Part shown: one piece after another, positions 25,101 through 43,100 of the stretch
How the letters are laid out: each line of letters begins with the position of its first letter
Position numbering within the stretch: position 1 is the stretch's first letter
Assembly: GCA_963924555.1 (NCBI GenBank)
Contig: OZ004587.1
Coordinates: 2,604,001 to 2,668,000 of the forward strand
Length of the DNA: 64,000 nucleotides
Direction of reading: 5' to 3'
From: Crambe crambe
Lineage: Eukaryota; Porifera; Demospongiae; Poecilosclerida; Crambeidae
The notes under the pieces: generated by a model
Seen by the model: only the letters and a program-made list of their open reading frames with translations
Database searches by the model: none
Told to the model about the DNA's origin: nothing
Position numbers and translations under genes: made by a program

Positions 25101-28100
25101 ACATACTGGTGCAGCTAAATCCATTGTTGGCAAGAAAGTAACCAGAGCGGCAGGAGCAGGTGTATGAATCAATAGTATTATTGCATATTTGCTCACAGAG
25201 ATGCACACCTTCAATACATTCATCGACCTCTGAAGAAAAAAAAATGCTAAAAACAGAACATATATTAATTACAACTATTCTGACCTCTACAAGTGTTTCC
25301 ATCAAGATTTAGTTCATATCCGTTGTTACAGTGACACATATAGGATCCAATAGTGTTGACACAGATCTGTTCACAGGAGTTTGTAGCATTTGAAGTGCAT
25401 TCATTTACATCTGCAGGATTAAAACCAGTGAACTCTGATAGTAATCATAATTGCTTTGATACCATCACAGATGAATCCATTCCTGTTGAGGGAGTATCCA
25501 GTGTTGCAGCTGCATGTGTAGCTACCTGGTGTATTGTGACAGTTCTGATCACACAAAGCAGTTCTCAGCAAGCATTCATCATCGTCTATGCAAAATAGAG
25601 TATTAAAGTCACGGATTCCACATGAGAAATCATATAGACACTTCTTTAACAACCATTCTTCATAATAACTCTCCATGTATACCTCATGACTACTATAATA
25701 GTTCTAGCTAGAGTTCAAATTTGCATGGTGCAGAGATTGATAATGCACACAATAGACATACATAGCATAACTCAGGAACAAAATTTGCTATACAATACTC
25801 CAGATTGCTAATAACTCAGTTTTGAATTTACACAAATAGCTAAAGCTGTAGCTAACTCTACCTCTGCATGTATGTCCATCAGCATTCAGAGTGTACCCAG
25901 ATCTGCAGCTACAGGTGTAGGAGCCAGGTGTGTTATGACAGTTCTGAGCACATAAGGTAGTGCCTGCTGCACACTCATCAATATCTTAATGTGTGGGCAG
26001 TAAAAATGATAGTCATAGTTATTGGACATTATTGATTGCATACCTGCACAGCTGAATCCATTGATTGCAAGTGTGTAGCCAGTGTTGCAAGAGCAAGTAT
26101 AGGAGCCATTAGTGTTGATGCAGCTATGCTCACAAAGATGAAGTCCTTCATTGCACTCGTGTATCTCTGATTTGTGATATTGCATGCATGTCATATTATA
26201 CTTTATATTGCAAAGACAGTGGAATCAGTGGAATTAAGCTCCAATGAAAGACATTAATTCTCAAACGGATCTCAACCTTTGAGAGGACAACATCATAAAA
26301 TGCTGGGTCCCCGTGTCCATTAATTGGAAATTAGTGATTGACTTTCTTATACCTGTACAATTTAGTCCGTCATCATTCAACCTAAAACCATTATTACACT
26401 GGCATGTGTAAGATCCAGGAATGTTGACACAGGAATGTTGGCAGCCATTGGTAGAGTCTGAACTACACTCATTGATGTCTGCATACAGGGAGAAAAACAA
26501 GAGGCAAATGTATACATTATTATATCCTTTTTCATGATCTCACCATCACAGGTGTATCCATCACTGTTGAGGGTGTATCCAGTATTGCAGCTGCATGTAT
26601 AACTGCCAATGGTATTAGTACAGCTTTGACTGCAGCTGTCTGTTCCCAGAGAGCATTCATCGATATCTGTAAGCAAACAAGAAAATTTATAAATATAATA
26701 TTTTGCATTAAGTATCTTCTTGACCATTGCATGTTCGTCCATCAGCATTCAGAATATATCCTGATTGACAACTGCAAATGTACGAGCCTGGAGTGTCCTG
26801 ACAGTTGTGGGTACATGTATCAGTGCCAAGGGTACATTCATCATCATCTGAAATAAAATGAAGTTTCATCCATCATTGATTAGCTATTATAGATGAACTT
26901 AATAATGTTCCTTAAATTAAATGCAAAATCAGCTACTGTGTTAATTTATTTGAAACTGCTACATGAGTCACATGATGTGGCAATCTTACAACAAAGCTGC
27001 AACACACTTGTACAGTCATACATACTCATGCAACTAAATCCATTAGCAGTAAGTGAGTAGCCAGTGAAGCAGGAACAGACGAAAGACCCTGCTGTATTCC
27101 TGCAGTTGTGCTCACAGTTGTTGGAACCAACTGAACACTCATCTATCTCTAAATAAATATAGAACAATTTAGTGCTTTTTTTTTTGAGCATTGATACCAA
27201 TAATACCTGCACAAGTCCTTCCATCTCCATTCAGCCTATATCCAGTATTACATTGGCACATGTAGGACCCGGGAGTATTAACACAAGTATGCTGGCAGGC
27301 ATTAGAAGAATTGCACTCATTGATATCTGCATGCATGCAGGAATCAAAAATATTTTTAAGGGTGCGACATTGCTTTAATAATTTGTGTTCACATGATTTA
27401 CAGTGTGAAGCTCCCCATTATTATTCACCAGGTTAATACTAGTAGACTCTAGCTAAGAGATTGCTTATGAATGAGCTTACCATCACATGTGCGTCGATTT
27501 CTGTTGAGAATGTACCCAGTGTTGCAGCTGCATGTATAACTACCAGCTGTGTTACGACAGTTATGTTCACATGAATCAGTTCCAATAGTACATTCATTAA
27601 TATCTACAAAAGTCACCAAGCAAGACATGAAATAGTAATAATTATGCGAAAGGTCTTAAGTTATTCAAATTGGTATCATTTAAAGTTCTTATTTGTCCTG
27701 AGTTTTTAATGATGTGGAATCAGCACGCGTGAAAAATTTTTTTGACTACACACTGACTTTTTATTAAACGCACCCATTTTAACTATAGAATTTTCCCAAA
27801 AGGACAAATGTATAATAAGCCACGATAGATTTCATGATGTCATTTGTTTAAACTTCAGATCACATGATGTGTGCTGAGCATGCATAATAATGCTATTTAT
27901 CATGTAGTCATTGTTAAAGCACTATGTCGGGCAGGACCAGGACAAGAGCTATAATAACATGAGTGTCCCGTTGGCAACTACGTATATGTAATACTAATGT
28001 TGACAGACATGTACATACCATTGCAGGTTCTGTTATTCAAACTCAATGTGTATCCAGGTAGACAACTGCAGATGTAAGAGCCTGGTGTATCATGGCAGAT

Positions 28101-40100: not shown

Positions 40101-43100
40101 ATCTGGGCACACATAGCTGTACCTTCTGTGCACTCATTAATATCTATGGATTTAAAAAAAATGTATGGATAAGAAATATGATTATATTGATCGTCCTTAC
40201 TACTGCAGGTGAATCCATTGCTTGAGAGAGTGTAGCCAGGGTTGCAAGAGCAAACATAAGAACCGTGTGTATTGGTGCAAGTGTGTTCACAGGGATCTGC
40301 ACCTTCATTACACTCATTAACCTCTGAACAGAGAAGGATAATAGAGATGATTTAAGTATGCACTATAAACAGTGTATGCATTCTAAACCTGTGCAATTCC
40401 TTCCATTAGCATTCAGCCTGAATCCAGTTCTACACTGACATGTATAAGATCCACGAGTGTTGACACAATTATGCTGGCAGGCATTAGTGGAAAGTGAGCT
40501 GCACTCATTACTGTCTACAAAATAAAAATTAGCCACTTACACAATACATGTACGTATATAATAAGTGAGCATACATACCATTACAAGTGCGTCCGTCACT
40601 GTTGAGAGTGTATCCTGCATTGCAACTACATGTGTAGCTTCCAACTGTGTTGTGACAGTTTTGTTCACATGTATCAGTCCCCATCACACATTCATTATTA
40701 TCTATGTAAGATAAAATAAAATAAAGAACAAGAAGAAAATATATTGGGAAATTTTCTTTAGATGATAGCTAATTCCTGTACTACAGTTTACTTGTGATTA
40801 CCTTTTACACTATAATTATTGTACAAGGTAATTAAATTAATTTTCGTTGTTGAACATGACCACAAAAATAGATTGACATTGAAAATTTCCCAATAGGTGA
40901 CTATAAACAAAGAAACATAGCTACATAAAACTAAAACAAAAGAGTGTGACTGAATTGTGTGTGAAAATGACACCAACACAAAAGATTGTCAACACAGTGC
41001 AACTGCAAACACTGAATGGTACATTTCAGCTCTAGCACTAAATTTTGGGAATGGCATTACATAATTCTTACACTTATCAAACTGTTCAGTCTTAGCCTTT
41101 TCCCTCCTACCTACAATCAATCTTACCAATGCAATTGTACCCATCGGAGTTTAAAGTGTATCCCACTCTGCAGGAGCAAGTGTAGGAGCCAGGCGTGTTC
41201 AGGCAGCCCTGGGCACAGAGGTCAGTGCCTGCTGCACACTCATCAATATCTGAAAAAAAGCACACACAATTCTATACCAAACACTATGAAGAGATATGAT
41301 CATCATCTCGAATGGGAAAGAGGGGAAGTAGCTAACGGTTCAAGCCATTGATGAGGGGCTATCATGCAGTGTCATAAAGAAGCTATTAATTTCGTGTCAA
41401 ACAAAGAGGTACACAGTCTGCTACAAATTTACTATCTTACCAACGCAGCTGAAACTATTGCTGGAGAGGGTGTAGCCAGTACGGCAGGAGCATATATAGG
41501 AACCTATTGAATTAGTGCACCTTTGTTCACAGTGATGGGAGCTTTCCACACATTCATTTATATCTATTTAGAAAAAGTAATTCAAGTAAATATCACTTTC
41601 TATAATATATATATACCTGTACAATTTCTTCCATCACGGTTTAACCTATATCCAGTCCTACATTCGCAGTCGTAAGAGCCAGGAGTATTGACACAAATTT
41701 GCTGGCAGTTATTAGTGGAACTTGAGCTGCACTCATTATTGTCTACAAAGGTTTAAAAAAATTAATGGGTAAACAAAAGGTTTGCTTTATTCTTACCATT
41801 GCATGTGCGTCCATCCCTGTCCAAAGTGTATCCAGTGTTGCAGTCACATGTGTAACTCCCTGCTGTATTTCGGCAAATCTGGTCACAAGAATGAGCCCTC
41901 GTGGAACATTCGTCAATATCTGTGAATAATGCAGAATAGAGTACACATAGTTCAGATCCATTTCTTTTAAAAATCATGCAGGCAAACTAGATCAATGTGC
42001 TGATATTAATACACATAATTATTATAGCTATTGATTTTTACAGTTGGTAGCTATAGCTAGAAAAAAAAAGGTCTTTTTGGAGTTTATAATAATATAGTGG
42101 CCCACTGGTGCATAATGTATAGTGGCCCGCCCACTGGTATTAGGAATATTAAAAAATACTTGGCATTCACTTATTAAATGATGAAGGAGAGCAATACTGC
42201 AGAGGCATTGTATGACTAATCATTAATTACTTGCACCCATGCACTTTATACTTCTAGCAATCAGCCTGGAAAGTATCCAGAAAAATCTGGACACTTAATT
42301 GTCAGTCTTCTTACGTAGATGGTGATGAGAAGGGAAATAATAATTATATATTTTTCTTGTTTAGTCAGTCAGACTGAAATTAGCTACATAGATTTAGAAC
42401 ACTACTACAGTGAATCCCGCAACCTGATTGGTCAGTTGGAGGTAAGCTAGATCACTTAGTTACCTGCATGAAACTAGGCAGTGACTACATTATTATAGTC
42501 TACTTCCTCTCAGGGCATAAGTAAGTCTACATATAGTACCCCTGCCAGCTAGTTGCGTTGTATTTTTGTAGCTGTTTTCACTCGAGGATGTTATTTTCAC
42601 TCTAGCTATGGTGCCAGTAGCTATATAGTGCTTGTCGTTTTCACTCACAATCGTAGGAATTTGGGGAGTTGAAATTTGAAAGTTTTGTTGACGTTGTCAG
42701 GCAGTCAAGGCCGTTGCTATGGTGTTCTAAAATAGTAGTTACCTCGACCAAGGGAACTACCATCAGTAGAAACCCAAAGGCCTGTCCCGAGCACAGCGAG
42801 GGCGCTAATGGGGGCCTTCGGGTTTCTACAGATGGTAGTTCCCTTGGTCGAGGTAACTAACTATTATATAGTATATGACTTACCCCTACATGTGCGACCA
42901 TCAGAATGCAGGGTGTATCCTGCTCGACAGCTGCAAGTATAGGAGCCTGGTGTGTCCTGGCAGTTATGGTCACATCGATCAGTGTTCAACCTGCACTCAT
43001 TAATATCTACAAAGAGACATACATACATAATACCATGAATATCGATAATAATTGCTGTGAATATTGTCTTGGTAAGAAGTTGTTTGCTCATAATAATTCA

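Follow-up and report, generated by a model that had tools for sequence, protein, structure and literature searches.

A 64,000-nucleotide stretch of the genome of the sponge Crambe crambe (assembly GCA_963924555.1, contig OZ004587.1, here C10, positions 2604001–2668000; hereafter the window) carries on its minus strand two tandem genes, A and B, which specify long chains of EGF domains. Gene B contains three copies of one 18-exon EGF cassette and gene A contains this cassette once. Most probably, gene B encodes a type I membrane protein whose chain of calcium-binding EGF (cbEGF) domains has grown from 54 to 90 units by tandem copying of this single block, and a gain in B is favoured over a loss in A. 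The assembly comprises 143 Mb in 119 contigs. Unless a contig is named, positions are those of the window, with negative values to its left. Exons are numbered in transcription order, a gene B exon number in the preliminary description of this DNA being 90 minus the present one.

EGF exons were picked by a six-cysteine pattern combined with a rule requiring AG, GT and phase 1. The scan of the window returned 117 such exons on the minus strand and two chance-like matches on the plus strand. Reading on for 70 kb beyond the left edge and 20 kb beyond the right one yielded 26 further exons, all directly to the left, and comparison of A with B disclosed one more in gene B, at 18349–18471, with a seventh cysteine. 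The totals are 54 EGF exons in gene A and 90 in gene B, which equals gene A plus exactly 36. The gene extents first proposed are amended accordingly: the window edge runs through gene A, whose 54 EGFs are reached only when the gene is taken in full, and gene B gains the exon at 18349–18471. Complete models, with upstream and downstream ends, were built from the A–B comparison (Table 1). Neither contains an internal stop, a property not built into exon picking. All modelled introns are GT-AG and those between EGF exons are all in phase 1, both features being partly imposed by the picking rule. The rule does not impose the identical fixed distances of 116 of the 117 window exons from their outer cysteines; only the last exon, continuous with the membrane stretch, departs from these distances.

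The signal peptide and the membrane stretch were read by eye from the sequence. The Pfam profile EGF_CA (cut-off 27) scored 147.6 bits over the first five EGFs of gene B and 57.5 bits over the last two, and the remaining EGF exons were assigned from the cysteine pattern. Patterns for beta-hydroxylation and for the calcium site match 54 and 44 times in A and 90 and 80 times in B, respectively. The EMI profile of Pfam stayed below its cut-off of 25 on the N-terminal segment of gene B (14.7 bits) and found no match in gene A, and this segment is described as resembling EMI only. The membrane and tail part of gene A (residues 2290–2413) returned no homologue at E≤10 among 96 candidate proteins of 0.55–1.75 times the length of A. 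One search of the sponge's own genome with the tail of gene B gave two matches, B and A. No Rfam family matched within the window at gathering thresholds.

Table 1. Genes, cassettes and junction introns (window coordinates, except for gene C).
Feature	Position	Strand	Description
Gene B model	13018..44565	-	94 exons encoding 3895 aa: signal peptide and EMI-like segment, then 90 EGFs, a hydrophobic membrane stretch and a short tail
Gene B, signal peptide and EMI-like exons	44140..44565 (44486-44565, 44307-44414, 44140-44246)	-	
Gene B, 3' end	13018..13624	-	last EGF and membrane exon 13354-13624; cytoplasmic exon 13018-13147
Cassette copy 1	37361..41919	-	exons B4-B21, 18 EGF exons; 4.56 kb
Cassette copy 2	29919..36365	-	exons B22-B39; 6.45 kb
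Cassette copy 3	25285..29687	-	exons B40-B57; 4.40 kb
Junction intron 1	36366..37360	-	B21/22, 995 nt; first 14 nt equal the start of intron A21/22; from about nt 44 matches the tail of intron 3/4
Junction intron 2	29688..29918	-	B39/40, 231 nt; first 8 nt equal the start of intron A21/22; rest matches the tail of intron 3/4, from further along
Gene A model	window part 1..10295, continues to -8131	-	58 exons, 2413 aa in all
Gene A, single cassette	3795..8199	-	exons A4-A21; 4.41 kb
Gene C, outside the window	C10 ~2510106-2525629	+	opposite to A and B; match coordinates

The cassette comprises 18 exons and 741 residues. Exons B1–3 correspond to A1–3, the sets B4–21, B22–39 and B40–57 each to A4–21, and B58–90 to A22–54. 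Exon lengths are equal across all four copies (72 of 72 exons). A 120-nucleotide exon occupies the equivalent place in each cassette of gene B (B13, B31 and B49, previously numbered B77, B59 and B41), as does an exon with the motif CLNTPGSY (B7, B25 and B43), which reads CLNIPGSY in A7. The threefold presence of the cassette in gene B, and its single presence in gene A, are thereby confirmed. The preliminary description had placed the tripled region at 25285–41919, limits that coincide exactly with the outer ends of B57 and B4, and had given a unit of about 4–6 kb, 18 domains and about 740 residues. These figures stand, the spans being 4.40–6.45 kb, as do the one-to-one correspondence by type and length, the shared places of the short and the signature exon, and the single set in gene A.

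The phylogeny of the exons bears out this correspondence. A FastTree tree of all 144 EGF exons (54 of A, 90 of B) places each of the 18 quartets, made up of the A copy and the three B copies, on one side of a branch, with support of at least 0.95 in 15 of them and the weakest value, 0.325, at exon 20. All 36 pairs of flanking A and B exons also group together. The alternative pattern named in the preliminary description, in which neighbours within a cassette would group instead of equivalents across cassettes, does not occur: there are no sister pairs less than 18 places apart within the same gene. Mean exon identity along gene B is 0.77 at a lag of 18 and 0.70 at a lag of 36, against 0.54–0.56 at odd and 0.56–0.66 at other even lags up to 40.

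The ends of the blocks are legible in the introns. Both junction introns are chimeric, with the start of the intron that follows exon 21 fused to the tail of the intron that precedes exon 4. The simplest reading of their history would be one illegitimate exchange, after which the join was copied and one of the two joins suffered a deletion. The joins also disturb an underlying rhythm in which exons are alike every four places (mean identity in gene A 0.66 at lag 4 versus 0.55 at lags 1–3). Exons of a 126-nucleotide type are spaced by four across this stretch of A and by two at both joins in B, since 18 is not a multiple of four. Further along, other irregularities of the rhythm are common to A and B, for example from A25 to A31, and a break in rhythm is not by itself unique to the joins. 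The combination of broken rhythm and chimeric intron at both joins is read here as the scars of block copying. As the EGF exons are in phase 1-1, block copying keeps the reading frame. Separately, about 140 nucleotides of intron B3/4 (41920–42883) match their reverse complement at 79%, and intron A3/4 has no match to them; the stretch looks like a small mobile element.

Sequence exchange appears to have continued after the copies arose. Informative sites pair A with copy 1, 2 or 3 at 15, 13 and 11 positions in exons and at 46, 57 and 24 in introns, where the poorly alignable intron A19/20 supplies 31 of the 57. An ordering of the three cassettes by these shared sites was attempted and failed, as the exon sites are even and the intron signal is a mosaic. 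When exon and intron sites are taken together, neighbouring sites agree in 91 of 165 cases, compared with a mean of 58 and a maximum of 84 in 10,000 shuffles. Exchange between the cassette copies is therefore likely, as we read it, and poor alignment of some introns may add to the clustering. Clustered and conflicting intron signal of this kind is also what could be invoked for duplication exon by exon, with equivalents subsequently made alike by gene conversion. That course of events is scarcely credible: 18 exons correspond in register by their order, their lengths and their introns, and the chimeric junctions mark the ends of blocks. The copies are about equidistant, and their star-like relationship with mosaic introns fits a single triplication as well as two rounds, whether or not gene conversion later overwrote the latter. 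Of the earlier proposal that gene B grew by two rounds, block-wise growth by 18 EGFs and a gain in B are retained; two separate rounds are one of these possibilities. A different tract may be a case of recent conversion between A and B: -3358 to -451 and 18327–21163 are about 90% identical, and the introns after A31–A37 are 95–100% alike, above the level elsewhere.

As A and B lie in tandem, a false join of haplotypes or repeats during assembly is conceivable. It is nevertheless very improbable as the origin of the triplication, because the copies differ by about 5–6% in exons and, with gene A included, by 13–21% in short introns, and the cassettes have copy-specific long introns. Moreover, the 154 kb read contain no N, and the similarity of A and B breaks off no more than about 225 bases from the modelled gene ends, which two haplotypes placed one after the other would not be expected to show.

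A third paralogue, gene C, situated some 70 kb from A, bears on the direction of change. Besides A and B, cassette 1 finds in the genome seven pieces at C10:2513017–2519552 on the plus strand, 77–91% identical, which together account for most of the cassette, each piece occurring a single time and in the order of the cassette. The 5' part of A locates exons 1–3 of gene C at 2511393–2512027 and exons 4–5 within 2512880–2513317, with a gap of about 1 kb from exon 3 to exon 4; the 3' part of A locates exons 20–25 in one run at 2519251–2520515 and exons 26–28 at 2525059–2525629. By these coordinates gene C would have one cassette, between exons 3 and 22. Also in gene C, 123 nucleotides between exons 3 and 4 (2512512–2512634) match the region of A exon 4 at 79% and are perhaps a partial extra copy.

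A gain in B is favoured because A and, by match coordinates, C have one cassette, because the four-exon register is broken at the B joins and intact over the same stretch in A, and because synonymous divergence (dS) between the cassettes is below that of the A/B flanks. Pooled dS is 0.081 between cassettes, whose three pairs are not mutually independent, 0.095 between A and the cassettes, and 0.116 for the flanks; the exon bootstrap of the difference between cassettes and flanks extends from -0.069 to -0.001. On this evidence, which is modest, the triplication would slightly postdate the A/B split. Short introns are 0.79–0.87 identical among A and the cassettes and 0.88 identical in the A/B flanks. 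The reverse course, in which an ancestor had three cassettes and gene A (and gene C) lost two via in-register recombination, is quite unlikely. Deletion between cassettes would restore a clean register, and if A and C are sisters one loss would be as short as one gain, so that the direction would rest on register and dS. Unless they are sisters, loss would be needed in both A and C. The lower dS of the cassettes also speaks against this course, and gene A, followed from end to end, does not simply switch from resembling copy 1 to resembling copy 3.

Several points weigh against growth of gene B by block copying as proposed here. Both gene models are predicted from genomic sequence alone, with canonical splice sites and phase that partly follow from the way exons were picked. 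Exon identities of the comparison classes overlap, with 0.943–0.949 among cassettes, 0.938–0.949 between A and the cassettes, and 0.932–0.950 in the three A/B flank sets; the overlap of the first two ranges is also compatible with loss in A. The differences in dS are small, and zero lies within the bootstrap interval (-0.030 to 0.002) for the difference between cassettes and A-cassettes. Caution applies to the single cassette of gene C, which is read from match coordinates of a genome search that gives best candidates only; the search with cassette 1 omitted cassettes 2 and 3 of gene B, which were found by the 5' and 3' queries. The two junction introns are possibly independent events, because they retain different amounts of intron 3/4. 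As to the number and order of rounds, exon sites by themselves are unclustered (11 of 38 neighbours agree, 12 being expected).

Under tandem copying of one block, the opening event would have been an unequal exchange in which the beginning of the intron behind exon 21 became linked to the intron ahead of exon 4. A second exchange, by then between homologous cassettes, would have produced the third copy, unless the opening event had already yielded it. Later exchange among the copies would have blurred their order, and the copies may then have come under weaker constraint. The ratio of nonsynonymous divergence (dN) to dS is 0.61 when cassettes are compared with each other, 0.50 when A is compared with them and 0.34 in the flanks, the difference between cassettes and flanks being zero or less in 0.12% of 5000 bootstraps. 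The raised ratio arises partly because dS is lower, and dN alone is not clearly higher (difference zero or less in 8% of bootstraps). Cysteines are invariant at 108 of 108 quartet positions. These values fit relaxed constraint on redundant cassette copies.

Among known proteins, the best 120 matches to the EGF region in each search, at 30–48% identity, are mostly fibrillin-like. Fibrillin shares with gene B the long chains of cbEGF domains. It carries TB (8-Cys) domains between its EGFs and has no membrane anchor, whereas gene B has a membrane stretch, and its model contains no exons other than EGF exons from the EMI-like part to the membrane. Exons for TB domains are absent from the gene B model, on whose middle part the TB profile was not run. 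A comparison set of 146 EGF-array proteins with at least 20 EGFs by pattern (of 240, gathered by similarity to A and mostly fibrillin-like) includes 139 without any pair of domains at least 70% identical at a spacing of two or more. No run of alike domains in the set exceeds 10, the value reached at lag 8 by a Nematostella protein named fibrillin-1 (P0132); by the same measure gene B reaches 36, at lag 18, and gene A 1.

Tripled multi-exon blocks are on record in nebulin and titin, and the kind of event is thus already known. In human NEB, a block of eight exons of about 10 kb occurs three times (exons 82–89, 90–97 and 98–105; PMC9109913), and the account in PMC9142044 describes the block copies as highly similar and records both gain and loss of blocks in people. 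The same account describes a segmental duplication in the PEVK region of TTN, in which nine exons occur three times (172–180, 181–189 and 190–198). As far as these accounts go, the likeness lies in an exon block tripled within one gene, in NEB for a long repeat protein as well. The blocks consist of nebulin modules or PEVK exons in place of EGFs, and the copies in gene B are about 5% apart in exons. Gene B as modelled has the features of such cases: a block present three times head to tail, with the frame kept across the joins. Complement receptor 1, as outlined in PMC10605242, has a block of seven SCR domains four times, one transmembrane domain and a short tail. It is likewise a membrane protein whose ectodomain repeats a multi-domain block, but in that outline it has SCR domains and no EGF, whereas gene B has EGF domains according to the cysteine pattern and, in the parts scanned, to Pfam.

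A survey of 24 proteomes by Bjorklund et al. (2006; PMC1553488) reports, in the part relied on here, multi-domain duplication units of up to nine domains in many repeat families and growth of EGF arrays mainly by single domains. Against this, the 18-EGF unit of gene B is supported as unusually large for EGF arrays. The earlier statement that the gain far exceeds the usual single domain agrees with the EGF result of the survey and needs qualifying for repeats in general, which according to the same source often expand by several domains at once. Triplication of an EGF cassette was not found in the titles and abstract beginnings of the open-licence papers listed, which is weak evidence of absence. 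Within the sponge genome, another EGF array (C19:4836633–4851471, 77 exons by pattern) is without a clean block repeat. Its landmark exons recur every 21–24 places or so (14/36/57, 15/37/58 and 18–20/42–44/65–67), and it is possibly an older large cassette blurred by exon-level homogenization.

Other repeats were encountered in the genome. On contig C20, between 4.60 and 4.86 Mb, several EGF matches recur with equal scores about 226.8 kb apart, which suggests a large recent duplication. On C12 (143562–144206), four EGF matches have a spacing of exactly 175 bases. Between EGF clusters on C19, similar copies of a repetitive open frame stand in series at 4700110, 4743728, 4764469 and 4795889; three measure 1133, 861 and 861 aa, and one copy is split into frames of 343 and 249 aa. 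To the left of the window, immunoglobulin-type receptor-like frames occur in similar copies on the plus strand (for example -11917 to -11147 and -59304 to -58774), and a neighbouring frame (-9135 to -8527) has several tyrosine motifs. Reverse-transcriptase-like and TRIM/NHL-like frames are also found there; these frames and the receptor-like ones were named by eye.

Chains of cbEGF domains separated by a single residue form stiff rods that depend on calcium. In sequence comparison with solved structures, EGF-bearing proteins such as LRP2, NELL2, thrombomodulin and uromodulin match best, with fibrillin lower down. As all six cysteines are kept in every domain of every cassette, the copying would be expected to lengthen the extracellular rod while leaving its anchor and tail as they were. 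The gene B product would, we infer, be a long cell-surface rod, two thirds longer than that of A in EGF number, and could serve adhesion, recognition or matrix binding. A speculative and rather unlikely extension is that cassette number acts as a length dial, setting the reach of this family of rods in steps of 18 EGFs through recombination between cassettes; alleles with one, two and three or more cassettes would segregate in the population, and the relaxed dN/dS would mark spare cassettes diversifying for ligand or self/non-self binding. Gene B offers a clean case of large-block growth in a domain family whose arrays, by published account, lengthen mostly through single-domain gains. The adjoining single-cassette paralogue A provides a built-in 'before' state, the breakpoints are readable in the introns, and the change of constraint after copying is measurable. 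Through this locus, the way in which a giant repeat protein gains length, with an illegitimate start, a homologous follow-up and conversion, would become directly testable.

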